In this document: piece after piece, positions 32,691-51,677 of the stretch
Layout: each line of letters opens with the position of its first letter
Numbering within the stretch: the stretch's first letter is position 1
NCBI GenBank assembly: GCA_024697425.1
Contig: JAILFT010000112.1
Coordinates: forward strand, 1 to 51,677
Direction of reading: 5' to 3'
Source: Butyrivibrio sp.
GTDB taxonomy: Bacteria > Bacillota > Clostridia > Lachnospirales > Lachnospiraceae
Length of the DNA: 51,677 nucleotides
Position numbers and translations under genes: made by a program
The notes under the pieces: generated by a model
The model's input: only the letters and a program-made list of their open reading frames with translations
What the model was told of the DNA's origin: nothing
Databases searched by the model: none

Positions 32691-32716
32691 AATAATTCAC
32701 CTCCAAATGGTTGCGC

Positions 32717-33136
32717 TCATCCTTCAAAAGATGCGCTGATCTCGTCTTCAGTCATTGTCAACAGTTTCTCAACTCCTGCCTTGTCCGAAAAAGTCATGGC
32801 GATCTTGCCAAGTACATCGAGATGTTCATCTCCTACCGCGGCAATTCCGATCACCACTTTGACTTTTTCTGCAGCCCCCCAGTCCTGGCCCTCGGGAAAT
32901 GTCATAAGAACCAGCCCTGTCTTCAAAATATGTTTCTTGGCTTCCTCTATTCCATGGGGGATAGCCAATTCGTTTCCAATATATGTATTAAACACCTTCT
33001 CTTTGTCCAGCATCGCCTGAGTATAGTACTCATTGGTAAATCCCTGGGAAGAAAAAATATCACCGATCTTTCTGATGACGTCTTCCTTATTACCGGGTTT
33101 CTGGTTTAAAAAGATATTTTTGGTTTCCAGTATCAT
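32717..33136 (-). CDS. mtlF: PTS mannitol-type EIIA component
   Basis: 139 residues of the PTS_EIIA_2 (fructose/mannitol) family. The phosphorylated histidine is in NELAIPHGIEEAK at about residue 61. It takes phosphate from HPr and passes it to the EIIB cysteine of the membrane component encoded upstream. It starts at ATG 33136 after CAGGAGG, 12 nt from the regulator gene. Confidence 0.93.
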   Translation of the reverse strand: MILETKNIFLNQKPGNKEDVIRKIGDIFSSQGFTNEYYTQAMLDKEKVFNTYIGNELAIPHGIEEAKKHILKTGLVLMTFPEGQDWGAAEKVKVVIGIAAVGDEHLDVLGKIAMTFSDKAGVEKLLTMTEDEISASFEG

Positions 33137-33148
33137 AGGTGCCTCCTG

Positions 33149-35185: not shown

Positions 35186-35197
35186 AAAAACTCCGTA

Positions 35198-36844: not shown

Positions 36845-36884
36845 TAAAAAAAAGCCGGCAGTGAGCAAGGAGCTCAAGGCCGAC
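36845..36884 (-). terminator. Rho-independent terminator of the type VII secretion island
   Basis: Minus strand GTCGGC..TTGAGC (36872-36884) pairs with GCTCA..GCCGGC (36854-36866) with two central mismatches, followed by about eight T (36845-36853). It lies 17 nt past the last gene. Confidence 0.8.
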
Positions 36885-36900
36885 AATTTCTGCAATATGT

Positions 36901-37410
36901 TTATTGTGCTGTATTTGTGATATCTTTTTCCACCACGAAGCCGGGTGTTGGCGAAGGAGCAGGCGAAGGTGCAGGAGTCTGCTCTGCCTCCGGTTTCAGG
37001 ATCGGCTCTGCCACAACGTTCTGCTGAGGCTGATCAAGCCGGCTAAGTACCATTGTTGCATACGGGTCCGGCTGACCGAGGACTGTTGTCTTATCCGGGT
37101 CATAGCTTTGAGCCGACTGAGATGAAGATGCCAGCTTTCTGCTGATATCTGCTGCAGTTCCGTCCAGGTTTTCTGACGTATTCCAGGAAACAACAGCTTT
37201 GTTCCTTCTTCGGCGATCTGCCTGAATCTCTCCGGAAGCAGCATCTTTTCTGATCTTGTCGATGCTTCTTTTTGCCTCGGAGCCTGTGAGCACCGCCAGG
37301 TAATGCCTTATGTCAAGTTTGAACCACATAATTACTGCCATTGCCGTCAGGATAATAAACATTACCAGTGAGATGACAGACAGAAGGTTATAGTATTCTA
37401 TATTATTCAT
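36901..37410 (-). CDS. Single-pass membrane protein with Pro-rich C-terminus
   Basis: 169 residues from ATG 37410 with GTGAGG 9 nt upstream; a GTG at 37425 overlapping the kinase stop is an alternative. One transmembrane helix (LLSVISLVMFIILTAMAVIMWF, about residues 8-29), then a basic stretch, a Ser/Thr-rich middle and a Pro/Ala/Ser-rich tail (TPAPSPAPSPTP). No family is recognised. The Thr/Ser-rich soluble part makes it a plausible substrate of the kinase encoded just upstream, which is inference. Last gene of the type VII island. Confidence 0.72.
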   Translation of the reverse strand: MNNIEYYNLLSVISLVMFIILTAMAVIMWFKLDIRHYLAVLTGSEAKRSIDKIRKDAASGEIQADRRRRNKAVVSWNTSENLDGTAADISRKLASSSQSAQSYDPDKTTVLGQPDPYATMVLSRLDQPQQNVVAEPILKPEAEQTPAPSPAPSPTPGFVVEKDITNTAQ

Positions 37411-37421
37411 TTGTCTATGCC

Positions 37422-39110
37422 TCACTTTCCTGCCGCCATATCAAGGGCTGCTTTTGCCAGAGCAAAACTCTTAACGGTATCCCCCGCAAGCTTTCCGGTG
37501 TTGTCTGTAATCTCAGGATCATTGTAAATATCCGAATCTATATGTGCCAGGATCAGATCCATTTCATCACACATCTCTTCGTAGGTAACTCCGGATTTCA
37601 AAAGCTGCGCCGGATACGTGTAGATCTGATTAGCAATCTCCTTGTAGATCATGAGCGCTGTGACTGCATTATCCACCTCTGCGATATTTCCGTCCGCAAT
37701 GGCAACAAGGTCATCCCAGAACTGATGATAGCTCACCATGGAATCTCCGCTCTTGCTCTCGGTCCCAAGCCCTGTGTAGTACTGGGCGATCTTTCCGAGC
37801 TTCTCTGCCCTGAACTGCTGTGCATCGGAGAGAGTTCCCTGATTGGCCGCAATCTGGAACCACTTGGCTGACATCTGTTTGTTGCCGATACCGTCATAAC
37901 AGTAAAAGTACGCAATTCCCAGCTTGTAGGCTACCTGTGCATATCCGTCTTTATCAGCTGCCAGACGCTTTTCTACTGTAGTTCCGCCGCTGGGAGTTAT
38001 CATGATCTGCCTTAGCATCTCATCCTCTTCCGGTGTGAAGTTGTCATCCGCAAGAAGGGTATTGTCCAAAAACTCTATATAAGCCGTAGGGTTGCCGGGA
38101 TCCATGACAATGGCCTTCCCGAACATCTCTGCAGCGGACAGTTCATCAACTGTTCCTATGGCCTCGGTGACATAGTAGTTATAGTTCTCTCTGGCAAGCT
38201 TTGTTGCCTTGGCATGGAAGGTAAGTCCCAGTCCCGCAAAAACAACTGCTGCTGCCGCCACAAGTCCGAATATAGTGACGCCTATTCTGGCATCCTTCTT
38301 GTATCCCCTGTCCAGCTCCTTGTAATTCTGGAGATCATACATAACCTCCGCACAGGACTGATATCTGTCCGCAGGGTTGTTCTGGACACACTTGTTTATG
38401 ATGTATTCAAGTCCCGGAGAAAGCTGCTGGTTCCAATACCTGATGGGATAAAACTCATAGGGCGGTTCACTGGGATTGTGCCCCGTCACCAGGTGATACA
38501 AAGTTGCGCCAAGGCAGTAAATATCTGTTCTTGCGTCGGTCTGTCCCATTCCTCCAAACTGCTCGGGAGCCGCATATCCTCTGGTTCCAAGGTAAGAAGT
38601 ATCTGAGTTGTTCTGCTCCTTGTACTCCCTTGCGGTACCGAAGTCAATAAGAGTGATGGTTCCATCAGGACGCAGCATGATATTACCGGGCTTTAGATCC
38701 CTGTAGATGATCGCAGGCTTTCTGGTGTGCAGGTACTCCAGCACATCACACAGCTGAATGCCCCATTCAACAACATACTCCTGAGGCTGCGCACCAAGCA
38801 TATTCAGCGCCTTCTCAAGAGTATTTCCTTCTATATAATCCATTACGATGAGGAAACGTCCCTCCTCATCTATTACATCCACGATACTGGGAAGATAAGG
38901 ATGAGACAGCTCTTTTAACAGATCCGTCTCAGTGATGAGGCTCTGCCTGACAACCCTGAAATCCGCCACCGCGTCCTTACGAACTTCCTTGATGGCCCAC
39001 TGCTTGTTGGCACGCTCATTCATTGCAAGATAGACAGTGCTCATTCCGCCCTGTCCGATCATATTTAAGACTTTGTACTTACCACCTACTAAACTACCGA
39101 TTTCTAACAT
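37422..39110 (-). CDS. Membrane Ser/Thr protein kinase with extracytoplasmic helical domain
   Basis: 562 residues. Hanks-type kinase domain at 1-270: Gly loop GQGGMSTVY, Lys41, catalytic loop YRDLKPGN (Tyr in place of the usual His), DFG at 156-158 and GTRGYAAPE. A transmembrane helix at about 275-298 is followed by about 260 residues of TPR-like helices outside the membrane (AEMFGKAIVMDPGNPTAYIE, YKLGIAYFYCYDG). PASTA repeats of PknB are absent, so it is not the cell-wall-sensing type. Encoded with a PP2C phosphatase beside EssC and Rhs genes, it likely controls or monitors the secretion system. Confidence 0.9.
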   Translation of the reverse strand: MLEIGSLVGGKYKVLNMIGQGGMSTVYLAMNERANKQWAIKEVRKDAVADFRVVRQSLITETDLLKELSHPYLPSIVDVIDEEGRFLIVMDYIEGNTLEKALNMLGAQPQEYVVEWGIQLCDVLEYLHTRKPAIIYRDLKPGNIMLRPDGTITLIDFGTAREYKEQNNSDTSYLGTRGYAAPEQFGGMGQTDARTDIYCLGATLYHLVTGHNPSEPPYEFYPIRYWNQQLSPGLEYIINKCVQNNPADRYQSCAEVMYDLQNYKELDRGYKKDARIGVTIFGLVAAAAVVFAGLGLTFHAKATKLARENYNYYVTEAIGTVDELSAAEMFGKAIVMDPGNPTAYIEFLDNTLLADDNFTPEEDEMLRQIMITPSGGTTVEKRLAADKDGYAQVAYKLGIAYFYCYDGIGNKQMSAKWFQIAANQGTLSDAQQFRAEKLGKIAQYYTGLGTESKSGDSMVSYHQFWDDLVAIADGNIAEVDNAVTALMIYKEIANQIYTYPAQLLKSGVTYEEMCDEMDLILAHIDSDIYNDPEITDNTGKLAGDTVKSFALAKAALDMAAGK

Positions 39111-39137
39111 AATAAAACCTTACTACTATAAAACTAC

Positions 39138-39953
39138 TTAAATGATACAATCTATCAGGATAGCCGAAATATTGTCGGTCTCTCCCCGCTCCTTGACTCT
39201 GTCTACAAGACCATCAAGGCTCTTTTTCATGGAAACCTCACTGTCGCACCGGGATGGCTTGAGGGCTGAAATCATCTCTGCCCCGCCAAGCTTTCGCCAG
39301 AATCCGTCTGAGCACATAAGGATGGAGGTCTGCTCAGCTATAACTCCTCTGACAAATTGAGGCATCACATTGTCTGACGCGCCTATGCACTGAAGGAGGA
39401 CACTCTTCTGTGGGCTCTCCTCTGCCTGCTGTGGTGTCATAAGTCCCCGGTCGATCATGTCCTGCACCACACTCTGATCATGGGTCAAAAGATCCATCGA
39501 CTTATCCGTAAGCATATACACCCGGGAGTCACCGATGTTCATGACGATGAACTCGTTCCCAAGCATCAGAAAGCTCACGCATGTAGTGCCAAGGGCAGAA
39601 CCGTGCTCCGTTCCGTATCTGCGGATGCTCATATTCATCTCGGAAACAAGAGCCATCCACTCGCGTCTGACGTCAGCAATTATATCACAGTCCTTGGAAT
39701 TGTCATCCAGTTTCTCTGTTGCATTGGTCCTGCTTAAGGTTATAGGCAGTTCCTCAGTAAACCACTTGCCCAGGCGATTTACCATCATGGAACTTGCGAC
39801 CTCTCCGTGGGAGAGTCCGCCCATGCCATCGCACAGTGCACCCATGACAATGCGTCCGGTTTTCTCTGTATTTGCCACCTTCACCATGGTGGAGTCCTGA
39901 TTAACTTCTTTTACTGTACCTTTATCGGTACTGATACAAACTTTAAATTCCAT
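39138..39953 (-). CDS. PP2C-family Ser/Thr phosphatase
   Basis: 271 residues with the metal-binding motifs in order: EVNQDS (Asp20), CDGMGG, GDSRVYML, CSDGFW and ETDNIS. It is a soluble cytoplasmic phosphatase, the likely partner that reverses the neighbouring kinase. Its ATG at 39953 overlaps the stop of the preceding membrane gene (TAATG), so the two are coupled. Confidence 0.93.
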   Translation of the reverse strand: MEFKVCISTDKGTVKEVNQDSTMVKVANTEKTGRIVMGALCDGMGGLSHGEVASSMMVNRLGKWFTEELPITLSRTNATEKLDDNSKDCDIIADVRREWMALVSEMNMSIRRYGTEHGSALGTTCVSFLMLGNEFIVMNIGDSRVYMLTDKSMDLLTHDQSVVQDMIDRGLMTPQQAEESPQKSVLLQCIGASDNVMPQFVRGVIAEQTSILMCSDGFWRKLGGAEMISALKPSRCDSEVSMKKSLDGLVDRVKERGETDNISAILIDCII

Positions 39954-40414
39954 TATTTCTTCTTTTTGTGTTCTACAACCACGCCTTCTTTTGTGTGCTT
40001 AAGATACTTGATCTTTATATAATCACCCTTATTCGCCTTGTTGTAATCACAGGATATGGTAACAGTTTCTCCGGTGTCTTCATCCTCTACCTTAATGAGT
40101 CTGTTTGCATATCGTGAGTCATATTGCTTTGATAGAACAGTTCCTTCAACGTACTGATAGTTTCCGGTTATCATATCCGGAATGTCCAACGTAAATGGAA
40201 GGACATAAGTCCATGCGCAAATTGCTATAACCGGCCCTACCAGTAGCTTGAGAATAATATCTATCACCTTAAGGCGAGGCTCATACCACACCCTGAAGCT
40301 GGGTTTTACTGAAGACAAGGGCATTAGGGGCCTACCCGTTACCAACTTGTAAACAAACCAGATTATCAATCCGGTAAATACGACCAACTCTAATATACGC
40401 TTAAACTGAAACAT
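39953..40414 (-). CDS. Two-helix membrane protein, candidate immunity protein for the Rhs toxin
   Basis: 153 residues from ATG 40414 after AAAGGTGG. Transmembrane helices at about 9-27 and 56-77, then a soluble beta-rich C-terminal domain (EGTVLSKQYDSRY, DEDTGETVTISCDYNKANKGDYIKIKYL) ending in a Lys run. It lies 38 nt downstream of the Rhs gene, the usual place of an immunity gene, and is coupled to the phosphatase. No family recognised. The alternative is a structural or regulatory part of the secretion system. The region is AT-rich compared with the metabolic genes, as expected for a swapped toxin/immunity module. Confidence 0.62.
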   Translation of the reverse strand: MFQFKRILELVVFTGLIIWFVYKLVTGRPLMPLSSVKPSFRVWYEPRLKVIDIILKLLVGPVIAICAWTYVLPFTLDIPDMITGNYQYVEGTVLSKQYDSRYANRLIKVEDEDTGETVTISCDYNKANKGDYIKIKYLKHTKEGVVVEHKKKK

Positions 40415-40452
40415 ATACTTATTACCACCTTTCTTTGATTATGGTACGTCAA

Positions 40453-43400
40453 TCAGCATTGCAATACCAGTTTATCGCCGTTTGCAGCACCGCTATTATC
40501 AATGCACTTAAATAAAACTGACCACGCAGTATCGATCACAAGTCCCGGAATACCCGAAACAAATTCATATGCTATGTACACACCTCCGTTGGCAAAAAAC
40601 TTTTTAGCTCCCTCAAGTGAGAATTCTAAAAGATCATCCACTACATCGTATCCAGCTTTTTCCAACGGATCCAGAACAATCTCTCCTACCAGTTCTCCCG
40701 CTTTCTGTCCAAGATACGCTGTTGCCATAGAAGTTCCTGCATGCAACGCCATATTTTCTACGTCTTTCAAGACATTTTCTTTTGTGAACTGTTTGTCACC
40801 CTGTATATAATCCGTAGCATTGTTCAAAAGATCTGTAGTAACCGATCCCGCAGCGGCTCCGGCAACAGGATTACCTGTAGCGGCAGTTACTGCTCCGCCT
40901 ACTGCACCTCCAACTGCAGCACATACAACACCTTGAAGAGTAGGTTTTTCTCCGGCGATCAGACTTGAAACGATTTCACTACCGGCACCATAGACAGCTC
41001 CTACAACGGCTCCGATTGCTATCTGAATCCACATACCATTCAAGTCTTGATATATCGTAGGTATGTTCAAGCAGTACAGATACCTGTTGTGTGAATCTCC
41101 GCAGGTATTGATTCCTCTAAGTGTATCTTCTCCGTTAAAACGTCCCGTAACAGGATCATAGTATCTGGCCTGAGCATAGCAAAGATCTGATACCTCATCC
41201 TCCTGGTATCCGATAAACGCGAAGGGCTGTATAACATTGCCGCTCTTAGTATAAGCATGCCTGTTTCCGGATACGCTGTTTGCACGTCTTCCGGTATTGG
41301 GATCTACTCTTCTTCCAAAGTCGTCATAGGCATAGGCATTAACTGTTAATCCGTCTGTTCCTGTGAGGTACATTGTACTACCGAGCTCATCCATAAGGTA
41401 GTAATAGTTATCGCCGCCCTTACTCATGCTTACTACGTTGTTATCGTAGACAAAGCTCTCAGTCTGGCCGTTGATCGTTCTCTCCAGCATATTGAAGTAT
41501 GCTCTGGAAATATCACACAGGTACTCGATCTTCTCCTCCGGACGAACCTGCTCTACCCTAAATCCAAGTCCGTTGTAGGAATAAGAAATATCACCTTTCT
41601 CAACATCAGTAGAACTTACCATCTTTCCTGTAGCATCATAACTAAAGGTTTTTCTGATGATATCACCTGATGTAACAGCAGTCTGATTGCCTCTCTTATC
41701 ATATGAATAACTGTTTTTCAGCTCGGTTCCGTCAACGCCTGTTATTGTAGTTCTGATAAGTCTGTCCAGAACGTCATACTCGTAAGATGTACGGGCATCA
41801 GCTTCAGTCATTGCTGTTCTGTTACCGAATGCATCATACTGGTAAGAAGCTCTCAGTTCGCCGTTCAGCGTGCTCTGTATAAGTCTTCCGACACCATCAT
41901 ATTCATAATGGTATGATCCGGATAATGCCTCCATATCCCTTCTTGTTCTGGCAACATCTGTCAGCAATCCGGATTCATAGTTATAATTAAAGCTGTCTAA
42001 AACGCCCTGTTTATCAGTATTGGTAAGTGACTTCAGAAGACCACCCTGATAATACTCCATTTGAGAAGCTGTTCCGTTGGGGAATACTCTCTCTGAAAGC
42101 CTGCCTGCTGCATCATATGAATAGGAAATCGCTTCATCCGATGATGTGTCCTTGAGGCTTATCAGTCTTCCGAATGAATCATATGAATACTCTGCCCTCT
42201 TTCCGTCAGGATAGATAAGCGCACTTCTGTAATCATAAGGGCCATACTCATAACCAACGGTTCTGCCCTTATAATCGGTTACACCGGTCTTTCTTCCGAG
42301 AATATCGCTCTCAATTCTTGTAAGTCCCAGGTGATCCTGCACTTCCTGAAGGATATTCAGAGCATTGTAGCTCATTGTTACTCTCTTGCCATCAGAATAA
42401 TTTATACCGGTTATATTGCCGTTATTATCCCTTGTATAGACAGTCTCAAATCCGTCACGGTCAATATGTGTCTTGAGCTTTCCAAGAACGTCATAAGTAT
42501 ATGTATCCTTTTGACCGAGTGCATCGGTAGCGGAGATTATGTTTCCGCCAAGGCTATGCTCATATACAGTCACATGACCTTCATTATCCACTCCGGGAAG
42601 TCTGCTGTCCTCAGATGTGTCAGCATTCTCAGTGCCAAAGCGCTCCACCTTGCAAAGGAGATCCAGCTCGTCATATGTATATTCTGTTCTGTTGCCAAGC
42701 GGATCTGTTACACTCTTTAACTTGCCGGTACCGGTATAAGTATAATAGGTTACTTTTCCTCCATCATTCAAAGACTCTACTCTGCCGAGTTTATCAAAGG
42801 TGTATGCAACAGTCCTTCCGTTAGAGCCCTTAGCTTCCCTGATATTTCCGTTGGGAGTATAGGAATAAGTAACTTCAAAGCCGTCAGTCTGGGTTTCCTT
42901 ACTGATTCTTCCGGCCTCTTCATATTCGTAGGAAACAACAGTAATCTCTTCCCCATCAGCCTTGCGTGTTACCTTGGCAAGTCTGTTCTTTTCATAGGTG
43001 TTCTCTGTGATAACTCCATATGAATCAGTGATTGTTTTCAGTCTTCCGCCTTTGTCATACGAATACAGCGTTTCTCTTCCGAGAGGATCTGTTTCTTTGA
43101 CGAGTCTTCCCGCGAAATCATACTCCCTTGTTGTCTCTCCGCCGTTAGGAGTTATGACTTTTGTGAGATTGCCCCTGGTGTCGTATTCATAGGCTGTAAC
43201 ATTGCCGTTACCGTCAGTTTCATTTTTGATTCTGCCAAGGCCATCATAGCTGTATGCATTAACCTGAACAGACTCTTTTACACCATCAATATCTACCTTG
43301 CCTTCCTTATTGATAGTAAGGATATTGCCGGCTTTATCATAAGTGTAAGCTGTCGCAATGCCATCAGGATCTGTCAGCTTTGTAATATTTCCAAGAAGGT

Positions 43401-45852
43401 CATACTCATAAATGACATTTCCGTTATTGGGAAGAACAATCTTCTCTTCTCTGCCTGATATGTTGTAGCTTACTCTTGTGGTTCTGTTGTCCTCATCGGT
43501 GTAGGAAACAGGTTTTCCAAGAATTCCATATTCCCAGGTCTTCCTTGTTCCATCCGGATTAATTACAGCAGATACTTTTCCCAGCCTGTTATACTCATAA
43601 GCAGTTACATTTCCCTCCGGATCGGTAACTCTTGTAAGATTATCTGCCTCATCAAATTCGTATCTGGTTACAGCACCGTAAGCATCCTTCGTTGCTACAA
43701 CTCTTCCAAGGTCGTCACACTCATATTCGGTCTTTACGCCATTGGCATCCACAATAGTACTAATATTGCCGCGCTCATCATAAGATAACACAATAAGGGT
43801 ATTCTCTTCCCCGCGAATGGCAACAACCCTGCCGTCTTCATAGTCCATACGGACTTTATTTCCTGCGGGATTGGTTACAGAATACAGATTCCCCTCCATA
43901 TCGTAGGTGAATTTATAGGCATTGCCATCCGCATCCTTTTTGGAATAAAGTCTTCCTTCGGCGTTATAGGTATAAAACTCACTATAGCCTTCCGGTCCGA
44001 TAATGCCGGTTAAATGACCTCTGTTATCATAGGTGTATCTGGTGGTGAAGCCATTTTTGTTAGTATAAGAGGTCTTCTGTCCTCTGGAATTATAAGTAAA
44101 TCTCTCCTTGATTCCCTGCTCAGGGTATAGTGTTCCCACATGACGTCCCAATTCATCGGACAAGTAATCCACCTTCAATCCATTGGGCTCCAGTGCATGT
44201 GTTATGTGTTCTTTATCATCGTAAGAGAAATTATAAACTCCCCCGTCCGGCATGGTCTGGCGAATAATTCTGTGAGCTGTGTCATACTCGTTTACCACAC
44301 CAACTACACCATCGGGTCTTACCGATGACGCAATCAGTCCGTCTTCAGTGTAAGTATATGATCTTACCTGTCCGTTTGCTGATACTATCGAAGTAAGCCT
44401 TAAGGGATCCGTAGAATCTTCGTATCTGTAAGAAACTTCTCTGCCTGCATGATCCTTCACCTTTACCAAAAGTCCGGCTTCATTATAGGACAAGGCAAAA
44501 AAGCTACCTTCCTTAGTCACAATCTTTATCGGAAGCGGAATATTTTCAGTAGTACCTTGACTGTTTTTCTTTGCGAATATATTGTATTCAACAATAGTGT
44601 GCTTTATGTTGTTTTTTCCAAAGGCAACTATAAAGCCATCCTTATCAAATTCCTTATAATCACCGTTATCAAAAACAATCTTATAGCCGGTCTCAGATTC
44701 TGTTAATATTCCCGGTTCACCATGGATCTCCATAAAAACTTCATCGGAGCCGAGCTTTACCTTTTCATATGTGCCTTCCTTACCGTCTCCAAACAGAAGT
44801 TTGAAGCCATCGTCCGTTTTTGAAAGATGCTCTTCAAAATTAAGAGTCCATCCCTTTCCAAGCACACCTATTCTTTCAGACAAGGCATTATAGAATCGGG
44901 TCACAGAAACGGATTTACGTCCCATAATAGTAAGGTCATTATATCTGCTTACAAAGTTACCGTTGTTCATATTTATGGGATCATATTTATATACCTGACA
45001 CCTTGGAACGTCACCATTCAGATATGCAGTGTATGTATCTATATAATCCTTATATTGATTGAGAGTATCCTTATCACCGGTTTCAATATTGTTCAGTTTG
45101 TCTTCATATGTTCCCGGATCAAATACTCCATCCCCGAGGTTATTGATTATATTATCCAGCGTGGTATTTACAGCCAGTATTAAATCTTCAAATTCGCCTT
45201 CAGAGAAATCATCATTATGTGCTTCAATGAAGTCCAAAAATTGATCTCTGAAAGTCTTTACAAATCCGTCACCGGTATCCTTTTTCGCGAAATCGTCAAA
45301 CCACTCCTTCAAACCATCATATTCAGGTTCTGTCACCGACAATCCTGCAGTGACATCGCAATTATCTATAACCTCCTTTGCATCATCTCTAAGTCCCTTT
45401 ATTGTTTCTGCATAAGAAATAAAAGTCGAATTGTACCCGGAAAAATCAGCAATGACGCTATTAAGTTTTGAGGTCTTTATTATCGCAGTATCATATTCAT
45501 CCAGCTCATCTCTGAACGCCTTAACCAGAGGAATACTGGATTCAAATCCTACTCCCTGCATCATCCCCTGAAGTATCTGCACTGCTCTTACAGTTTCAAC
45601 AAGCGCATTGTACACCTTATCGTTCATAAATTGTTTAGATGCAACCGCTTCGGTTCCGGTATGATCATCGTCATTTATGAATGCCTGCAGTCCTGTTCCA
45701 AGCGCAGTGGACTGCAGATTAAATACTGAAAGCTGAGTAAAGCAATTGTCAAAAAATTCTATTATCTTGGCCTGATCCCACCACTGGTCATCATCCCCTC
45801 CTGTGGAATCTCTGTTTATGGCTTCTTTTACATAAGTCTCATTTTCGCTCAC
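40453..45852 (-). CDS. LXG-like/Rhs polymorphic toxin, type VII secretion effector
   Basis: 1799 residues. The N-terminal 270 residues are helical and LXG-like (LQAFINDDDHTGTEAVASKQ), a type VII targeting domain. Next is a DUF6531 module (DPINMNNGNFVSRYNDLTI, about 291) and a long series of YD/Rhs repeats (about 430-1560) expected to form a cocoon. The core ends with RYYDPVTGRFNGEDTL; the usual DPxG motif after it reads QDLNGM, so self-cleavage may be altered. The last 192 residues are variable: a Gly/Ala-rich segment (GAVVGAVYGAGSEI, AAVGGAVGGAVTAATG) then a helical end. No nuclease or other catalytic motif is visible. It starts at GTG 45852 after AGGAG. Confidence 0.9.
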   Translation of the reverse strand: MSENETYVKEAINRDSTGGDDDQWWDQAKIIEFFDNCFTQLSVFNLQSTALGTGLQAFINDDDHTGTEAVASKQFMNDKVYNALVETVRAVQILQGMMQGVGFESSIPLVKAFRDELDEYDTAIIKTSKLNSVIADFSGYNSTFISYAETIKGLRDDAKEVIDNCDVTAGLSVTEPEYDGLKEWFDDFAKKDTGDGFVKTFRDQFLDFIEAHNDDFSEGEFEDLILAVNTTLDNIINNLGDGVFDPGTYEDKLNNIETGDKDTLNQYKDYIDTYTAYLNGDVPRCQVYKYDPINMNNGNFVSRYNDLTIMGRKSVSVTRFYNALSERIGVLGKGWTLNFEEHLSKTDDGFKLLFGDGKEGTYEKVKLGSDEVFMEIHGEPGILTESETGYKIVFDNGDYKEFDKDGFIVAFGKNNIKHTIVEYNIFAKKNSQGTTENIPLPIKIVTKEGSFFALSYNEAGLLVKVKDHAGREVSYRYEDSTDPLRLTSIVSANGQVRSYTYTEDGLIASSVRPDGVVGVVNEYDTAHRIIRQTMPDGGVYNFSYDDKEHITHALEPNGLKVDYLSDELGRHVGTLYPEQGIKERFTYNSRGQKTSYTNKNGFTTRYTYDNRGHLTGIIGPEGYSEFYTYNAEGRLYSKKDADGNAYKFTYDMEGNLYSVTNPAGNKVRMDYEDGRVVAIRGEENTLIVLSYDERGNISTIVDANGVKTEYECDDLGRVVATKDAYGAVTRYEFDEADNLTRVTDPEGNVTAYEYNRLGKVSAVINPDGTRKTWEYGILGKPVSYTDEDNRTTRVSYNISGREEKIVLPNNGNVIYEYDLLGNITKLTDPDGIATAYTYDKAGNILTINKEGKVDIDGVKESVQVNAYSYDGLGRIKNETDGNGNVTAYEYDTRGNLTKVITPNGGETTREYDFAGRLVKETDPLGRETLYSYDKGGRLKTITDSYGVITENTYEKNRLAKVTRKADGEEITVVSYEYEEAGRISKETQTDGFEVTYSYTPNGNIREAKGSNGRTVAYTFDKLGRVESLNDGGKVTYYTYTGTGKLKSVTDPLGNRTEYTYDELDLLCKVERFGTENADTSEDSRLPGVDNEGHVTVYEHSLGGNIISATDALGQKDTYTYDVLGKLKTHIDRDGFETVYTRDNNGNITGINYSDGKRVTMSYNALNILQEVQDHLGLTRIESDILGRKTGVTDYKGRTVGYEYGPYDYRSALIYPDGKRAEYSYDSFGRLISLKDTSSDEAISYSYDAAGRLSERVFPNGTASQMEYYQGGLLKSLTNTDKQGVLDSFNYNYESGLLTDVARTRRDMEALSGSYHYEYDGVGRLIQSTLNGELRASYQYDAFGNRTAMTEADARTSYEYDVLDRLIRTTITGVDGTELKNSYSYDKRGNQTAVTSGDIIRKTFSYDATGKMVSSTDVEKGDISYSYNGLGFRVEQVRPEEKIEYLCDISRAYFNMLERTINGQTESFVYDNNVVSMSKGGDNYYYLMDELGSTMYLTGTDGLTVNAYAYDDFGRRVDPNTGRRANSVSGNRHAYTKSGNVIQPFAFIGYQEDEVSDLCYAQARYYDPVTGRFNGEDTLRGINTCGDSHNRYLYCLNIPTIYQDLNGMWIQIAIGAVVGAVYGAGSEIVSSLIAGEKPTLQGVVCAAVGGAVGGAVTAATGNPVAGAAAGSVTTDLLNNATDYIQGDKQFTKENVLKDVENMALHAGTSMATAYLGQKAGELVGEIVLDPLEKAGYDVVDDLLEFSLEGAKKFFANGGVYIAYEFVSGIPGLVIDTAWSVLFKCIDNSGAANGDKLVLQC

Positions 45853-45907
45853 CTTTTTATCGCTCCTAGCTTATTCTTCTCATATTCATATTATTGATTG
45901 ATCTTCA

Positions 45908-46261
45908 TCAGCCACCTTGCTGGGATGCTGCATCTGCCAATTCTTTTGCCTTATTTTGATCAACCTTGTTCACGTAGTTCGTTTCTACGTTCTTCATCAA
46001 TTGAACCACTAATACCTGAGCAGCCATAAACTTTTTAATAGTATCAATAACTCTATGGTCGGCCGTTGCATAATCCGGAATAACCGCATTATGATTGGCA
46101 TTAGTATCCGGTTCTACGTAGTCCGTATCTTCCAGCAACCCTGCGCTGCTTGTTTCAATAAGGCCCATGTATGTCTCATATGTGTCTGTATCCATCTTAA
46201 TTGGATCTGCAAACTCTGCAGGAGCTGCAGTATAAGCAGGTTCTTGTTTCTCTGCACCCAT
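45908..46261 (-). CDS. Small acidic helical protein of the type VII island
   Basis: 117 residues, from ATG 46261 after AGAGGTGATTAAAA. A Pro/Ala/Thr-rich N-terminus is followed by two helical stretches (DTYETYMGLIETSSAGLL and DTIKKFMAAQVLVVQLMKNV). No family is recognised with confidence. Its place between a DUF5082-like gene and the toxin gene matches that of LXG-associated helper proteins, which bind the LXG domain and guide it to secretion; this role is inferred from position. Confidence 0.7.
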   Translation of the reverse strand: MGAEKQEPAYTAAPAEFADPIKMDTDTYETYMGLIETSSAGLLEDTDYVEPDTNANHNAVIPDYATADHRVIDTIKKFMAAQVLVVQLMKNVETNYVNKVDQNKAKELADAASQQGG

Positions 46262-46281
46262 TTTTAATCACCTCTCTTTTA

Positions 46282-46680
46282 TCACAGTCTATCCAGTTCA
46301 GACTGTAGATCCCCTATTTTTTTCTCAAGTTTTTCTATGGCCTTGCCTATATCAGTCATTACCGATGTTACAAGACTCTGATAAGTCCCAAGTCCCAGTC
46401 CTATTGTTATTCTCTTTTGCTCAGCAGCATCATATTGCTTGCCTTGCCAGTCTAACTCTCCTCCTGAGAGATCATAAGGTTCGATTATTGGATTAGTTAC
46501 ATTATCCGTAATACCATCCTGATTTTTTGATATCTCATCCTTTATGGTTTCCAGTTGCGCTTTTATTCCGCTATAGTAGTCTATCTGTACTTGAAGCTCA
46601 GCTTTTCTGGCTGCATTAGGATCCTCTTCTACTGGGCTTGATCCGCCACCACCTATCTGATCATTTATTTCCGCTGACAT
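46282..46680 (-). CDS. WxG-bearing coiled-coil protein, DUF5082-like
   Basis: 132 residues from ATG 46680 with GGAGG 8 nt upstream; an in-frame ATG at 46701 precedes that ribosome binding site and is not used. Two helices (AELQVQIDYYSGIKAQLETIK and about 90-132) flank a turn with DWQGKQYD, a WxG motif. The arrangement resembles DUF5082/YwqH proteins of LXG toxin operons in Bacillus. Probably a secretion partner or chaperone of the Rhs effector. Confidence 0.75.
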   Translation of the reverse strand: MSAEINDQIGGGGSSPVEEDPNAARKAELQVQIDYYSGIKAQLETIKDEISKNQDGITDNVTNPIIEPYDLSGGELDWQGKQYDAAEQKRITIGLGLGTYQSLVTSVMTDIGKAIEKLEKKIGDLQSELDRL

Positions 46681-46744
46681 ATGTTTTTCCTCCGTTTTCA
46701 TTATGTGATCCCTGATGATTCAGTATCATGAAATGCACCGGGTA

Positions 46745-46775
46745 GCTTTGACACCGCCCGGCACCGCTTTTATAT
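46745..46775 (-). other. GC-rich hairpin between two WXG-type genes
   Basis: On the minus strand GTGCCGGG and CCCGGTGC lie about 15 nt apart and can pair over the CCGGG core. There is no U-run. It could lower transcription past the abundant WXG100 genes or stabilise their mRNA; weakly supported. Confidence 0.35.
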
Positions 46776-46790
46776 GTAAGGTAATTGATA

Positions 46791-47090
46791 TCAACCTTCG
46801 TATGAAAGCCCTCTTGAAGCCTGATCATCGATAGAGCTCAGGTTCTGAGAAGATGTATTTACATTGCTTCCTGTCTGATCAAGAGTATCTACGAACTTGT
46901 TCAGATCTGCATCGAGCGCGTAATAAGTATCTGTAAGGGTAGTTGATGCTGTTCCGTATGTACCCTGTGCGATAGTATCTACTACATCCTTAAGGCTCTT
47001 AAGTGTTGTACCAAGATCTGATGCAAAATTCTGAAGTTGCTGTGCGCTCTGAGCAATCGCCTCGACGTCACCTCTGATTACTGCTGACAT
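46791..47090 (-). CDS. WXG100-family-like protein lacking the Trp
   Basis: 99 residues, helix-turn-helix pair. The turn reads QGTYGTAS, so the usual WxG is TYG. The C-terminal part (SSQNLSSIDDQASRGLSYEG) is Ser/Asn-rich. Length, predicted fold and neighbours support an Esx-type secreted protein that may dimerise with the WXG100 protein encoded just upstream. It starts at ATG 47090 behind AAAGGAG. Confidence 0.85.
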   Translation of the reverse strand: MSAVIRGDVEAIAQSAQQLQNFASDLGTTLKSLKDVVDTIAQGTYGTASTTLTDTYYALDADLNKFVDTLDQTGSNVNTSSQNLSSIDDQASRGLSYEG

Positions 47091-47108
47091 ATTAATTCTC
47101 CTTTCAAA

Positions 47109-47405
47109 TTAGTTTCCTGCGCCGTAAGCGCTTGCGCCCTTACTTGCGGCTTCGACATAGCTTTCCTTAACATCATCAACCCACTTGTAGATTTTTCTAA
47201 CTTCTACAGCCATCTGGGTCATCTTTGTAGAGATGTCATTGATAAGGTTTACGGCAGCATCTGCTTCTTCGCCTTCCCAGCAATCCTGAAGAGGCTGCTG
47301 AAGCTTGCCAACGCCCTCTGTGAGGTCGTCGAGCTTAACCGCTCCGCTTTCCAGTGTAACGAGCTGAGACTCAATCTCACTGATGTCCATACCTGTCATT
47401 CCCAT
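47109..47405 (-). CDS. WXG100 family type VII secretion protein
   Basis: 98 residues from ATG 47405; GGAGGA ends 8 nt upstream, and an earlier in-frame ATG at 47420 overlaps that ribosome binding site. Helical hairpin with the WxG turn in DCWEGEEADAAVN, and a C-terminal tail AASKGASAYGAGN. Typical EsxA-like size. It is the first gene after essC and is probably a secreted substrate and structural partner of the machine. Confidence 0.92.
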   Translation of the reverse strand: MGMTGMDISEIESQLVTLESGAVKLDDLTEGVGKLQQPLQDCWEGEEADAAVNLINDISTKMTQMAVEVRKIYKWVDDVKESYVEAASKGASAYGAGN

Positions 47406-47426
47406 GTTCTTTTCCTCCATTCTTTT

Positions 47427-50400
47427 TTAGTTATCAATCGGCGTTTTTATCCTCTTGATACTTGAGTTGTTTATGTAAAATGCATCACCAACGCCTGCCT
47501 TGGTCTTAACGGCTGTCACTATCTGGCTTGGAATAGTCAGAAGAGATATGTCTCTGATATTCTCAAACATTACCAGGCTTCCGCTGTCCCTAAGCAGCCT
47601 CAGTACCGGATTTGATACCGAAGTAACCGGAACGTTGTCTACATCGGTGAACATAATGCATACCTTTGATTCCATTAAGCTAGCTGTCAATTCCTTGAAC
47701 TGCTCAAATACATTCTCGTCCTTTCGGATAACCTCAAGAACCTGCTTGTTTCCTACAACCAGCATGATAAGCGGATCTGCAATTGCCCTGGTGGGATCCT
47801 CCTTGTATTCCTGCTTACGTGTCTGTGTGATGCCACTGATCGTTTCAATCGCATCGATGACATCCATAGGATTGAAGGAGTAGGATACAACTCCATCCCC
47901 GTTTTTAAACTCTCCAAGGAACTTATCCTGAGAATCTATGATATACAGGTCAGTCTTTGACTTGGCCTGGCTAGCTACTACTTTGCTCATTACATACTTA
48001 ATGAACCTGTCTTTTCCAAGATCTTTTCTTCCTGCGATACCAATCATATGACCTGCAGCGAATTCGAAGTAAGCAGGCAAAGTATTGGAATAACTAAGAC
48101 CGATGATCAGCTTATACTCATCCACATCATTACTTCCGAATCTGCGAACCAGATACTTATCATTAAGCTCTGCAGGAACATACCTGACTTGCTCGGCTTT
48201 CTCCGCACCGTATTTTGCATTGGTCTTCTCAATGTACTCTTTGATCTTGGCAATTCTCTCAACCTCTTTTCCGGTGGAGAATGCAATATAGGACTGGAAC
48301 TCCTTACACTCGGTTCCAAAGGTTGTAACTCCTCGTCCGGGAACTTCGTCGGGATAGACCTTACAACGATCGAGAAGAAGCGGATACTGTCCTCTGTCGT
48401 TACAGTGAAGGGCTATCTTGAAGGAGAAGTTAGTCATAAGCTTATAGCCAATTCCCGCCATCTGCTGGTTGGTGATAACAACTGAAATACCGTTGGCAAC
48501 ACCGTCTCGGCAGATTGTAAGGATACTGTCCTCATAATTGGGGAAAGTAGCTCTCATGACCGTGTAGTTCTCGATGATCAGGATTATCTGAGGCTCGTCC
48601 TTAAATCCTGCCTCGCGGTAAGATCCGAAGGAACTGAGTCCCTTTGATGAAAGAAGACGTCTTCTCTCATCAATCTTATTGATCATCATCTCTATCAGAT
48701 TCTTAAGCTTGTCCTCTTCAGTGATGGTTACAACACTTCCCACATGATTGAGGTCTTCAAATACTCTGAGGATCATGGAAGCAAAGTCTATGATATAGAT
48801 GTTTACTTCCTTTGGTGAGTACTTGGTAGTCAGACCCATAATCATGCTCTGCAAAAGAGTTGTCTTTCCACTGAGGGAGGAACCAAGGATAAACGCATGG
48901 TTCCTTGTAAAGTCAAGCTCAAACTCGTCCTGAGCCTGTCTGTCGGGATCATCGTAAATACCGATAGGGACTGTGATATCTGTCTCTTTGATCTCGAGGT
49001 TCTCAGGATAAGGAATAACTTCCTCAAGAGGAGGCAGACATATGTCTGGCAGCTTAGGTATCTGAGCATTCTTGCAGTAATCTGCCACATACTCAACCAC
49101 CGCATCCAGCTGAGTCATTGATGCCTCGCTCTTCTCAGGCTTCTGCTCGTAGAGAACAGTTCTTTTGCCTGAAAGATCCACTCTGCTGATCTTGAACTTC
49201 CTTCTGGCATTAGTACTCTGCACAAAGGCAGGAGCCCCACTGTAGGCCGACTGGAAAAGATCGAATATCTCGTTGTTACCAACCTGAAGATAAGCTCGTC
49301 CGGGCTCTCTGATCTCTGCGGCCAGAGGTGAGTGAAGCACTTCATTGGAATCACTCTTATCCTGTACCTTCAGACAGAGTTTAAACTTGGAGTTACTCCA
49401 GATCTGGTCGTTAACGACACCGGCCGGCTTCTGGGTTGCAAGTATCAGGTGAACACCAAGGCTTCGTCCGATACGGGCTGTGGAGATAAGCTCCTTCATG
49501 AACTCAGGCTGATCAGCCTTAAGCTCAGCAAACTCGTCTACCAACAGGATAAGGTGCGGAAGCGGAACCTCCGCTTTGCCTTCCTTGTAGAGCTTTATAT
49601 AGTTATCTATCTGGTTAACTTCGTATTTTGCAAACAGTGCCTGTCTCTTCAAGAGCTCTGCCTTGATTGACTTAAGGGATCTGTCGATCTGCTTACCATC
49701 AATATTTGTAATGGCGCCGTTTAAGTGAGGCAGGTTTTTAAATTGGTTTGCCATTCCGCCGCCCTTAAAGTCGATGATGATGAAGCTCACATCATAAGGG
49801 TGGAAAAGAGTTGCTATTGAGAGGATATACGACTGCATGATCTCAGACTTACCGGAACCGGTAGTACCGGCCACAAGTCCGTGAGGTCCGTGGTACTTCT
49901 CGTGAAGGTCAAGGGCAATGATCTCATCTCCGCTCTTAACTCCGAGAGGCGCAGCCATGCTCTCATAAACCTTTGATTTTGCCCATCTCTCTTCAAGATT
50001 CAGGTCATATGCACTCATGATGCCAAGGAGTTGATAGAAGGAAATGTTCTTGGTAAGAGTGCTCTCAAGGCTGAGCTCTTTGATATAAACAGGAGCAAGC
50101 TTCTTGGCGCAGCCTCTTGCCACATCCATGGAAATATGGTTGTAATCAAAGTACTGAATATCTGTACCATCCTTGATATCCTGAACAAATCCGTGATTCT
50201 TGTCAGGCTCAAGGAACACTCTCTTGTCACAGGCGTTATGTAGCAATTCCTCATATTCCTCAAAGAATATGAAAGAGAATCCAAGATCATTAGCACGTTT
50301 AACAAACTCTTTTACCGGATGCTCCATGAACTTCTCAGAGCGATAAACATAAACAACAAAGTGGGCAAATGCTCCTCTTTCTTTATCTCTTATGGTTTCT

Positions 50401-51677
50401 CTTGCAGAAAGCTCTCCGTAGAGGAACTCCAGTCCGCTCTTGGCGCTGTCATCATCGTATATGATGAATCTGGATCCGTCGGCCTCATTGCTAAAGTGCT
50501 TGAACCATCTTGTCCATTCAAAGAACCTTACGTCCTCCTTGTCCATGATGATGAACTCTTTAACATCGTAGTAGAAGTGTTGTCCGGAAACCGTGATGAT
50601 CATGTTCTTAAGGATCTGATACAGCTTGTCTCTGATACCCACAATGCCTATAGCATTGCATTTTGCCAGTTCCAGAACCACCGGCATATCGTCGATGTAC
50701 TGGTACTTGTCATGCATCTTTTCCGGATAATCCATGAGCATGTCCTCAGTCTCGACATACTCCTGCTTCTTGAAATCTATCTGGCAGAGGGACTTTACTC
50801 GCCCGTTACCGATCCTGACGGTAAGGAAATCGTCGTGGTCCTTCTCTTTCTCAAAGAGCCTTGCACTGAAATCGTTGATATTTCTGACAGTCTCTTCCAG
50901 GGACCTGTTTTTCTCGGACTCAAGGGTTCGCTCCTCCTGTCTCAACCGGGTGAGCTCTTCCTCTTTCCTGTCCATATATTCGTTATAGACTTTAGTCCTT
51001 AATGCAATCTTCTGTTTGTATTCCTTGTTGCTGTTGATGTAGTTCCAAACACTCATGGCGCCGCTTATGCACATGGTGGCCGCAAAGTAAACGACGAACA
51101 TCTTGTTACCGTTCATCATCCTTCCCCTGATGAACACCATAAGGAAAAGGGTCAGAACCGTGGGCAAAAGAATCATAAGAAGATTTTTCTTCGGTTCCTG
51201 GGGCGCAGTCTTTGGTGGCAATACTTCAGGTTTCTCATTCGGATCAAGATACTGCTGCCTTGCGTTTCTAAGGAACTGCGGGTAATGATAATGATTGGTC
51301 TGGGGCAGGATATTGAAAGTCTTAAACCTTGTTGTCACCTGACCGTTATCCGCTGTATATATGCAATCCCCTTCCAGATAGAAGAAGTTGCCGCAGTATT
51401 CAAAGAAATGTTCGTTGGATACTACAACTCTCTTCTGATTCTTGGGAGTGAATCCATTTACCATCACTCCAATGTGACTGCCGGACTGATCAACCTCAAA
51501 GCCTTCGGGAGTTCTTTTGAAAAGAACTTTCTCTCCCCTGATGGCATTGTTGCCTATTACGATATCGCAGTCAGGGCTTCCTCCGAGAGTGAACTGAGGT
51601 GCTCCTCCCAGTGTGATCTGCAGGTTGTAATTGTCCTGCTTGTCACCGAAGTCCTCCGAGAAATCAAGAAATACGAT
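47427..51677 (-). CDS. essC: Type VII secretion ATPase EssC, 5'-truncated by window edge
   Basis: The frame is open through the right edge, giving 1416 residues without the N-terminus. The visible start is an FHA-like domain (LGGSPDCDIVIGNN, with most phosphothreonine-binding residues replaced), followed by a second FHA-like region, two transmembrane helices (LLMILLPTVLTLFLMVFI and MFVVYFAATMCISGAMSVW) and three FtsK/SpoIIIE ATPase domains. The first has GTTGSGKS (near 49846-49869) with FIIIDFKGGG and LLVDEFAEL; the second GSSLSGKTT (near 48866-48890); the third GRKDLGKD (near 48010-48035), lacking the Ser/Thr after Lys. It is the motor of Firmicutes T7SSb. Confidence 0.95.
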   Translation of the reverse strand: MVFLDFSEDFGDKQDNYNLQITLGGAPQFTLGGSPDCDIVIGNNAIRGEKVLFKRTPEGFEVDQSGSHIGVMVNGFTPKNQKRVVVSNEHFFEYCGNFFYLEGDCIYTADNGQVTTRFKTFNILPQTNHYHYPQFLRNARQQYLDPNEKPEVLPPKTAPQEPKKNLLMILLPTVLTLFLMVFIRGRMMNGNKMFVVYFAATMCISGAMSVWNYINSNKEYKQKIALRTKVYNEYMDRKEEELTRLRQEERTLESEKNRSLEETVRNINDFSARLFEKEKDHDDFLTVRIGNGRVKSLCQIDFKKQEYVETEDMLMDYPEKMHDKYQYIDDMPVVLELAKCNAIGIVGIRDKLYQILKNMIITVSGQHFYYDVKEFIIMDKEDVRFFEWTRWFKHFSNEADGSRFIIYDDDSAKSGLEFLYGELSARETIRDKERGAFAHFVVYVYRSEKFMEHPVKEFVKRANDLGFSFIFFEEYEELLHNACDKRVFLEPDKNHGFVQDIKDGTDIQYFDYNHISMDVARGCAKKLAPVYIKELSLESTLTKNISFYQLLGIMSAYDLNLEERWAKSKVYESMAAPLGVKSGDEIIALDLHEKYHGPHGLVAGTTGSGKSEIMQSYILSIATLFHPYDVSFIIIDFKGGGMANQFKNLPHLNGAITNIDGKQIDRSLKSIKAELLKRQALFAKYEVNQIDNYIKLYKEGKAEVPLPHLILLVDEFAELKADQPEFMKELISTARIGRSLGVHLILATQKPAGVVNDQIWSNSKFKLCLKVQDKSDSNEVLHSPLAAEIREPGRAYLQVGNNEIFDLFQSAYSGAPAFVQSTNARRKFKISRVDLSGKRTVLYEQKPEKSEASMTQLDAVVEYVADYCKNAQIPKLPDICLPPLEEVIPYPENLEIKETDITVPIGIYDDPDRQAQDEFELDFTRNHAFILGSSLSGKTTLLQSMIMGLTTKYSPKEVNIYIIDFASMILRVFEDLNHVGSVVTITEEDKLKNLIEMMINKIDERRRLLSSKGLSSFGSYREAGFKDEPQIILIIENYTVMRATFPNYEDSILTICRDGVANGISVVITNQQMAGIGYKLMTNFSFKIALHCNDRGQYPLLLDRCKVYPDEVPGRGVTTFGTECKEFQSYIAFSTGKEVERIAKIKEYIEKTNAKYGAEKAEQVRYVPAELNDKYLVRRFGSNDVDEYKLIIGLSYSNTLPAYFEFAAGHMIGIAGRKDLGKDRFIKYVMSKVVASQAKSKTDLYIIDSQDKFLGEFKNGDGVVSYSFNPMDVIDAIETISGITQTRKQEYKEDPTRAIADPLIMLVVGNKQVLEVIRKDENVFEQFKELTASLMESKVCIMFTDVDNVPVTSVSNPVLRLLRDSGSLVMFENIRDISLLTIPSQIVTAVKTKAGVGDAFYINNSSIKRIKTPIDN

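Follow-up and report, generated by a model that had tools for sequence, protein, structure and literature searches.

Kinase and phosphatase genes and a shared threonine motif in a type VII secretion locus found on two contigs of a rumen Butyrivibrio-group genome

Gene content of the locus

The window analysed here, a stretch of 51,677 nucleotides, is one whole contig (JAILFT010000112.1) of a Butyrivibrio-group draft genome and ends within essC. Gene calls and Pfam searches place all the genes named in the original prediction on the minus strand at the positions collected in Table 1, and the run is unbroken as had been claimed, with intergenic gaps of -4 to 89 bp from essC down to K. The single terminator proposed after K also stands, since a hairpin followed by eight T can be read in the sequence and folds; a simple consensus scan returned none there. 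A distance of 299 bp separates K from the next annotated gene, a PTS gene.

Table 1 Features of the locus in the window
Feature	Position	Strand	Remarks
essC, ATPase	47427..51677	-	5' end cut by contig end, 1416 aa left; FtsK_SpoIIIE; NCBIfam T7_EssCb_Firm 1141.6 bits, cut-off 778.4
FHA domain in EssC fragment	51429..51593	-	key residues G-G-R-K-I, not G-R-S-H-N
WXG100-type protein A	47109..47420	-	Pfam WXG100 25.0 bits, just below cut-off 27.3
WXG100-type protein A2	46791..47090	-	Pfam WXG100 41.5 bits, above cut-off
Small partner-like protein, 139 aa	46282..46701	-	weak YwqH-like match, 20.8 bits, cut-off 33.7
Small partner-like protein, 117 aa	45908..46261	-	no Pfam match; homologue, 57% identity, same place in genome G050
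Rhs protein, candidate effector, 1799 aa	40453..45852	-	RHS repeats, DUF6531, Rhs core
ORF153, membrane protein	39953..40414	-	two hydrophobic stretches; no Pfam match
PP2C phosphatase F	39138..39953	-	Pfam PP2C_2 49.8 bits; DGMGG, GDSR, DNIS present
Membrane Ser/Thr kinase D	37422..39110	-	Pfam Pkinase 157 bits; TM from about residue 276
Pro-rich single-TM protein K	36901..37425	-	TM residues 9-39, then long tail; no Pfam match
First Thr-x-Val-Leu site of K	37078..37089	-	TTVL, residues 113-116
Second Thr-x-Val-Leu site of K	37045..37056	-	TMVL, residues 124-127
Terminator-like hairpin and eight T after K	36846..36884	-	read in sequence; hairpin also folds

The search for the remaining secretion genes beyond the contig end, which had been suggested as a check, was successful in part. 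Another contig of this genome, C26, includes about 30 codons of essC, so that roughly 0.2 kb of the gene is missing between the two contigs, and carries upstream genes that are absent from the window: I, a large Ig-repeat protein recognised by Ig-like Pfam matches; HTR, a trypsin-like/FHA membrane protein; J, a DUF6382-FHA protein (FHA 49.7 bits; DUF6382 22.6 bits, below the cut-off of 26.7); V, a ParA/MinD-like ATPase whose size and place fit the T7SSf candidate V; and B, which is YukD. EssB and EsaA were not among the genes recovered. The gene run is complete in genome G050, where EssC is 91% identical to that of the window. The locus belongs with the type VII secretion systems that have a kinase, a phosphatase and FHA domains, and lies on two contigs of this rumen Butyrivibrio-group genome; its gene content, order and linkage are established at the level of sequence. 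The same applies to the catalytic residues of F, which are listed in Table 1, and of D, where Lys41, Asp138, Asn143 and Asp156 are invariant in 30 homologues.

Of the two WXG100-like proteins that had been predicted, one exceeds the Pfam cut-off and the other falls just short of it. The protein that had been called an LXG-Rhs effector has the expected Rhs repeats and core; LXG itself gave no Pfam match up to E 1, and the N-terminus shows weak profile similarity to effector-like proteins of Bacilli loci, presumed to be LXG proteins (hhalign P 1.4e-4, probability 52%). ORF153 is possibly an immunity gene or a piece of the kinase cassette; its description as an established immunity gene was dropped. 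It is 97% identical in G050 despite a different Rhs C-terminus. The locus probably exports the WXG100 proteins and the Rhs effector against competitor bacteria.

Relation to described systems

Type VII systems with a kinase, a phosphatase and FHA domains, designated T7SSc-j, were published in 2024 by Garrett, Higginson and Palmer (PMC11217815), who also raise the possibility of phosphorylation control and the comparison with type VI secretion. The combination that the original prediction regarded as little described is therefore not new as a headline observation. Literature on Butyrivibrio and type VII secretion, judged by titles and abstract openings, held no such locus, and the terms T7SSe, T7SSf and T7SSj occurred, among the matches listed, in PMC11217815 only.

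The assignment of the locus to T7SSb was not borne out. EssB/YukC (PF10140) exceeded the cut-off in none of the eight genomes searched, with a B. subtilis control above it; sub-threshold matches occurred in three of the eight, and the Butyrivibrio-group genome gave no match at E 0.01. EsaA (TIGR03929) was found in none of the eight at E 0.01, the Butyrivibrio-group genome included. Since neither protein was detected, the locus is not T7SSb. In the EssC tree, whose labels are lower bounds, with some loci fetched in two pieces and the window present twice, the EssC of the window lies in a 77-row branch apart from nine Bacilli T7SSb rows. The locus has EssC, WXG100 proteins and YukD in common with T7SSb of Bacilli (B. 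subtilis Yuk, PMC9600267), as well as an EssC FHA domain without the phosphothreonine residues, but carries the kinase, phosphatase, J, V, I, HTR and K instead of a detectable EssB and EsaA.

The likeness to T7SSe, T7SSf and T7SSj as reported in PMC11217815 extends to an EssC-type ATPase with FHA domain, WXG100, YukD-like B, kinase, PPM phosphatase, a DUF6382-FHA protein J, a single-TM protein K, an Ig-like protein I (T7SSe/j), a candidate for the TadZ-like ATPase V (T7SSf), and Rhs and LXG candidates with small partners. Among the features of T7SSe, a second WXG100, YukD-like B, kinase D, PPM phosphatase F, I, K and J are all present; the T7SSe H protein (single TM, short tail) is indistinguishable from K by the text of that paper, and the locus has one such protein, K. 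The phosphothreonine residues reported as conserved in the EssC FHA domains of T7SSe and T7SSj are lost in the window. The kinase lies 8.3 kb from essC; T7SSf is reported without a linked kinase. The TPR domain of T7SSj gave no Pfam match at E 0.01 in the outer part of the kinase. The locus thus cannot be placed in one subtype. Its kinase, phosphatase, K and I are like T7SSe/j and are joined in one locus with V, which by size and place is like that of T7SSf, and there is an extra protein, HTR (trypsin-like, TM, FHA), apparently absent from the components named in PMC11217815. In this way the locus brings V and HTR into kinase-bearing type VII systems. A further difference is a Thr-x-Val-Leu motif in K and HTR.

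A threonine motif in K and HTR and its candidate readers

The motif, in the form Thr-x-(Val/Ile/Met)-Leu, is common to K, homologues of which come after the kinase gene in relatives, and to the linker of HTR, whose gene adjoins those of J, V, B and EssC. In 35 K tails there are 59 such sites against 3.9 expected, and the serine version S-x-[VIM]-L is found 0 times against 3.3 expected. These 35 were taken from 42 positional candidates, with omission of three outside a T7 context, three without a TM and one with a TM that is not near the N-terminus; they include L182, which its sequence marks as a surface protein and which is probably not a K, and even T-x-[VILM]-L is absent from four of them. 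Clustering of K at 30% identity gave nine groups, five with the motif, a number equalled by the best shuffle, and 14 sites against 1.0 expected and six in the best shuffle. Six more K from other genera hold 23 T-x-[VILM]-L sites (1.6 expected). HTR linkers contain 24 sites (1.0 expected), with the motif in 19 of the 19 analysable linkers, the linker rule having given a linker in 19 of 26 HTR proteins. As to controls, 24 ORFs behind unrelated kinases hold four sites against 7.1 expected, family V is above its shuffles for T-x-[VIM]-L (27 against 16.0, best of 60 shuffles 24), PP2C is slightly raised (20 against 11.9, best shuffle 23), and the "rest" control comprised 300 of 1670 proteins. Our impression from the literature is that the motif in K and HTR, which is not expressible as a search term, is new.

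Candidate readers were sought by an FHA check of 56 J, 24 HTR and 94 EssC sequences, left after removal of identical and open-ended rows. The FHA Ser, His and Asn are retained in 51 of the 56 J and in all 24 HTR; the Arg is mostly Lys in both, a replacement that may weaken phosphate binding. FHA domains have a preference for the residue three places after the phosphothreonine. They also prefer phosphothreonine to phosphoserine (PMC4037201), which fits the near absence of serine in the motif. The canonical FHA residue set occurs in only four of the 94 EssC, four of the 94 having gaps at all five places. The original prediction had included an FHA-containing motor in the switch, and the domain is indeed there; since its phosphothreonine-binding residues are lost, the motor is not a likely reader, and the EssC FHA domain was rejected in this role for this EssC branch.

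In the GarA and OdhI switches, a threonine motif lies in a flexible stretch ahead of the FHA domain. HTR, and J of loci L243-L245, likewise have the threonine motif before the FHA domain, with the difference that HTR is a membrane protein with a trypsin-like domain, encoded in a secretion locus.

We propose that membrane kinase D would sense an envelope signal and phosphorylate Thr-x-(Val/Ile)-Leu motifs in the predicted cytoplasmic tail of K, encoded next to it, and in the HTR linker. The FHA domains of J and HTR would then dock on these phosphothreonines and gather J, HTR, V and the ATPase EssC at the putative membrane parts I, HTR, K and D, by which secretion would be switched on, whereas phosphatase F would reset the switch. 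To this model as a whole we give an even chance. A phosphothreonine docking code, taken with all its parts together, seems to us equally likely to be right or wrong: K would be a tail anchored in the membrane and bearing as many as eight Thr-x-(Val/Ile/Leu)-Leu sites that the kinase writes and the phosphatase erases; the same site would serve in HTR, where it precedes the FHA domain, as it does in J of other families; reading would have moved from the decayed motor FHA domain to J and HTR; and HTR, with a decaying trypsin-like domain outside and its FHA domain on the inner side, would add a new component to a Lachnospiraceae branch. The type VI switch PpkA/Fha/TssL of Agrobacterium (PMC3953482) is similar in having a dedicated kinase, a threonine of a membrane secretion part and an FHA reader. 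However, the machine is unrelated, the Butyrivibrio case is known from sequence alone, and the acceptors K and HTR have several copies of one motif.

Linkage to essC and competing explanations

Kinase matches were found in 31 genomes, those confined to the kinase domain not being counted as full-length. The kinase lies within 25 kb of essC in 8 of the 20 genus genomes that have both a full-length match and EssC (P about 2e-10 under random placement in a 3.5 Mb genome, relatedness ignored). In a comparison drawn from 80 EssC loci of named genomes, 14 of the 25 V-type loci whose flanks were complete have a kinase and/or phosphatase, but none of 10 Bacilli loci does (P 0.002); nine of these ten fall in the T7SSb branch, and the tenth, from Paenibacillus, does not. 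All 48 kinase and phosphatase genes, found at 32 of the 80 named loci, are on the EssC strand. Chance linkage is rejected by the placement and locus-comparison tests. Kinase and phosphatase lie near secretion genes more often than chance would place them, yet not invariably: 10 of the 20 genomes have the kinase and EssC on different contigs, and at 11 of the 25 V-type loci both kinase and phosphatase are missing from the neighbourhood. Kinase and phosphatase genes not linked to essC in related genomes, which had been named as evidence against an integrated pair, thus do exist in part of the relatives.

This raises the possibility, unlikely but to be taken seriously, that the kinase, phosphatase, K and I are an envelope-signalling module with its own clients, which secretion genes merely often adjoin. 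In G015, G032 and G025, F-D-K indeed lies apart from essC in an FtsH-UvrC slot, and G008 (99% complete) has I-F-D with a short K, without EssC at 1e-60 or WXG100 over the cut-off; furthermore, I is present in 24 of 116 genomes, 23 of these with the kinase. Such a module agrees less well with the co-occurrence of kinase and EssC in the genus (20 genomes with both, 4 with kinase only, 8 with EssC only, 40 with neither; Fisher P 5.5e-8, relatedness ignored), with the presence of the same motif in HTR next to the secretion genes, and with the lack of the motif in the K of G008.

A doubtful refinement, compatible with the proposed switch, is that J is the counterpart of the missing EssB, its DUF6382 part being a pseudokinase that holds the decayed FHA domains of EssC and thereby bridging phospho-K and the motor. 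Its appeal is that the EssB pseudokinase binds the EssC FHA domain in B. subtilis (PMC9600267), and hhalign pairs J columns 40-156 with the pseudokinase part of EssB (P 0.025); the hhalign probability is a mere 1.9%, however, and when the J profile was compared with the PDB the best 60 of 67 matches were all to the FHA part and none to EssB, with GarA and OdhI chains among the matches.

The Lys-bearing FHA domains of J and HTR might also not read phosphothreonine at all, so that Thr-x-Val-Leu would be a phosphorylation-free docking site, as the T7SSb FHA domain binds the EssB pseudokinase without phosphorylation (PMC9600267). We consider this improbable, for the threonine is hardly ever swapped for serine and the locus encodes both a kinase and a phosphatase. 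More improbable still is an action of the kinase on transcription or the general envelope rather than on the secretion apparatus itself, for which IreK and the T7SSb of Enterococcus faecalis are a precedent (PMC11217815), since IreK is described as an envelope-homeostasis kinase and D is instead linked to FHA proteins and motif carriers.

As regards the proposed switch, the 2024 survey could say only that phosphorylation may control some type VII subtypes (PMC11217815); with an acceptor motif, its carriers and likely readers named, this idea is reduced to a few binding and mutation tests. That the kinase module is able to sit far from essC may explain why some subtypes look kinase-free.

Composition and class of the locus

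The window comprises all of contig C199; its genome is a draft of 232 contigs, estimated to be 84.5% complete and 6.6% contaminated. The locus is real and its description in the original prediction was mostly correct: the named genes of the type VII island stand on the minus strand as described, with intergenic distances of −4 to 89 bp all the way from essC, which is truncated by the contig end, down to the gene of K, a proline-rich single-TM protein, and the predicted terminator after K is present as a hairpin with eight T residues, overlooked by a simple scan. The PTS gene next in line is separated from K by 299 bp. Here K is separated from UvrC by PTS and dehydrogenase genes (31428–36601), likewise in the compared genome G050, whereas UvrC directly follows K in several relatives.

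Genes missing from the window are found on C26, a second contig of the same genome, where an FtsH gene, the genes listed below and the start of essC follow each other in one direction up to the contig end, about 30 codons into essC. In G050, of which kinase and phosphatase are 99% identical to those of the window, the run from FtsH to K is unbroken on a single contig.

Genes between the FtsH gene and essC on C26, in order
Gene	Contig	Length	Features
I	C26	1484 aa	Ig-like domains
HTR	C26	577 aa	Trypsin-like domain, TM, FHA
J	C26	308 aa	FHA; DUF6382 match under cut-off
V	C26	340 aa	ParA/MinD-like
B	C26	85 aa	YukD

The T7SSb label that had been attached to the system is incorrect. Neither EssB/YukC nor EsaA had a match over the cut-off in any of the eight genomes searched, which places the system outside T7SSb, although its ATPase, EssC, passes the NCBIfam EssC model. 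In a FastTree analysis of 95 EssC rows, the window EssC falls within a 77-row branch separate from the nine Bacilli T7SSb rows. According to the main text of Garrett, Higginson and Palmer (PMC11217815), T7SSc-j comprise kinases, PPM phosphatases and FHA proteins, with the parts named, Rhs and LXG candidates occur with small partners, and the comparison with type VI systems was made by these authors themselves. The headline, a little described kinase/phosphatase locus recalling a type VI switch, is therefore already known. As far as that text goes, the present locus shares parts with T7SSe/j and V with T7SSf, but T7SSf was published without a linked kinase, whereas the kinase is linked here, and HTR is an addition to these parts. 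The words 'trypsin' and 'Lachnospir' are absent from the main text, and 'protease' is used there only for mycosins.

Regarding the predicted LXG-Rhs effector, the Rhs part is confirmed, and the LXG-type likeness of the N-terminus is weak. The Rhs C-terminus of the window differs from that of G050, where (L066:2098–3803) two extra small ORFs lie between the differing end and a 97% identical ORF153, the membrane protein encoded between the Rhs gene and the phosphatase gene. This resembles the usual picture of a swapped toxin end with the older immunity gene remaining; alternatively, ORF153 could belong to the cassette of phosphatase (F), kinase (D) and K. At another locus (L115, L116; G061:C1:706001–740000), a long series of Rhs pieces and small ORFs lies behind one Rhs gene, accompanied by WXG100 and partner genes.

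Linkage of the kinase cassette to essC

Within the genus (about 72 genomes), a full-length kinase match was found in 24 genomes, EssC at 1e-60 in 28 and both in 20 (Fisher P 5.5e-8, kinship ignored). The linkage expected in relatives holds in part: kinase and EssC lie within 25 kb in 8 of these 20 genomes, 27 and 45 kb apart in two, and on separate contigs in 10. Compared with random placement, 8 of 20 corresponds to P ~2e-10; when close relatives are roughly allowed for, the count of 5 of 14 gives P ~1e-6.

Among the best 80 of 546 EssC loci in named genomes, scanned with home-made profiles, a kinase and/or phosphatase was detected in 21 of 45 V-bearing loci, in 14 of the 25 V-bearing loci with at least 9 kb on each side, in 11 of the 25 V-less loci outside Bacilli, and in none of 10 Bacilli controls, nine of which belong to the T7SSb branch, the tenth being a Paenibacillus locus. 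All 48 kinase/phosphatase genes, from 32 of these 80 loci, lie on the EssC strand, which carries 88.8% of all ORFs (P 0.003). The gene order in B. fibrisolvens 16/4 is I-HTR-F-D-K-J-V-B-EssC, with essC split into two frames in that record, and two loci from other families (L243, L245) have I together with J-F-D-K.

The cassette also occurs away from essC. F-D-K lies between the FtsH and UvrC genes in G015, G032 and G025, with EssC on another contig or not found, and in the same slot in G034 and G045, with EssC 12 to 20 kb beyond. G008, which is 99% complete, has I-F-D and a short K with zero Thr-x-[VILM]-Leu sites (L095, G008:C75:82001–102000), and neither EssC at 1e-60 nor WXG100 over the cut-off was detected in it. 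The kinase module may serve different clients, or it may be a relic there.

Other arrangements were also seen. In G015:C4 and G032:C8 (L109/L110), a second, different PP2C (46% identity) is directly followed by an HTR-type protein, B and EssC, with F-D-K on another contig. A different EssC type of 1678–1697 aa (L083, L085, L093; G018, G057, G065) has a distant PP2C (24–27%) and an FHA protein, vWA-like by eye, after the WXG100 run. A distant kinase (27–29%) a few genes past EssC (L117, L124; G024:C9, G059:C16) is apparently another pairing of a kinase with type VII genes. G015, G025, G032 and G034 have two I-type proteins each.

A threonine motif and its candidate readers

The K set, defined by position after the kinase in type VII context and one N-terminal TM, gave 35 tails, 27 of which contain T-x-[VIM]-L: 59 sites in total, where shuffling at constant composition gave 3.9 ± 2.0 (maximum 12 over 2000 shuffles). 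The serine version is absent (0 sites, 3.3 expected). With T-x-[VILM]-L there are 93 sites versus 6.2, in 31 of 35 tails, and 2 versus 5.0 with serine. T-[VIM]-L is likewise raised (37 versus 3.8), which mainly reflects the frequent TTVL form of the motif. After clustering at 30% identity, nine groups hold 14 sites versus 1.0 (largest shuffle 6), and five of the nine have the motif, as in the largest shuffle. All 19 HTR linkers between TM and FHA carry it (24 sites versus 1.0; serine version 0 versus 0.9), as do 6 of 6 after clustering. Six K proteins from other genera, chosen via the K profile and hence not blind to the motif, all have T-x-[VILM]-L (23 sites versus 1.6), one with eight T-x-[VI]-L sites. 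The window K has sites at residues 113 and 124, and the HTR of its genome TTVL at 467. In families lacking HTR (L097, L243, L244, L245), the motif precedes the FHA domain of J.

The ORFs that follow 24 other kinases (4 versus 7.1), J (12 versus 14.8), the kinases (30 versus 29.3) and 300 other proteins (65 versus 79) are at or below shuffles; PP2C (20 versus 11.9) and V (27 versus 16.0, exceeding all of its 60 shuffles) are somewhat raised. The scarcity of serine is as would be expected of an FHA ligand and is no proof of phosphorylation. The mechanism, of which the biochemical steps are inferred from sequence, is a reasoned guess given an even chance, a confidence lowered because the main count is cleaner than either the V control or the K count after clustering.

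Five residues (Gly, Arg, Ser, His, Asn) are conserved in FHA domains, which, as far as the source describes, favour phosphothreonine over phosphoserine (PMC4037201). The window EssC reads G-G-R-K-I at these places, and the canonical set occurs in 4 of 94 EssC proteins, one from another family (G074) with J, F and D close behind EssC. Ser, His and Asn are retained in 51 of 56 J and 24 of 24 HTR proteins; the Arg position is mostly Lys in both, which is a real weakness of the argument for J and HTR as readers.

The protease domain of HTR has the His-Asp-Ser triad in 0 of 24 proteins. Cys takes the nucleophile place in 14, nine of them His-Asp-Cys, including that of the window genome, so that HTR looks like a protease en route to a pseudoprotease. 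In this sample, the EssC rows with HTR nearby all lie within one 33-row branch that includes Butyrivibrio and Pseudobutyrivibrio.
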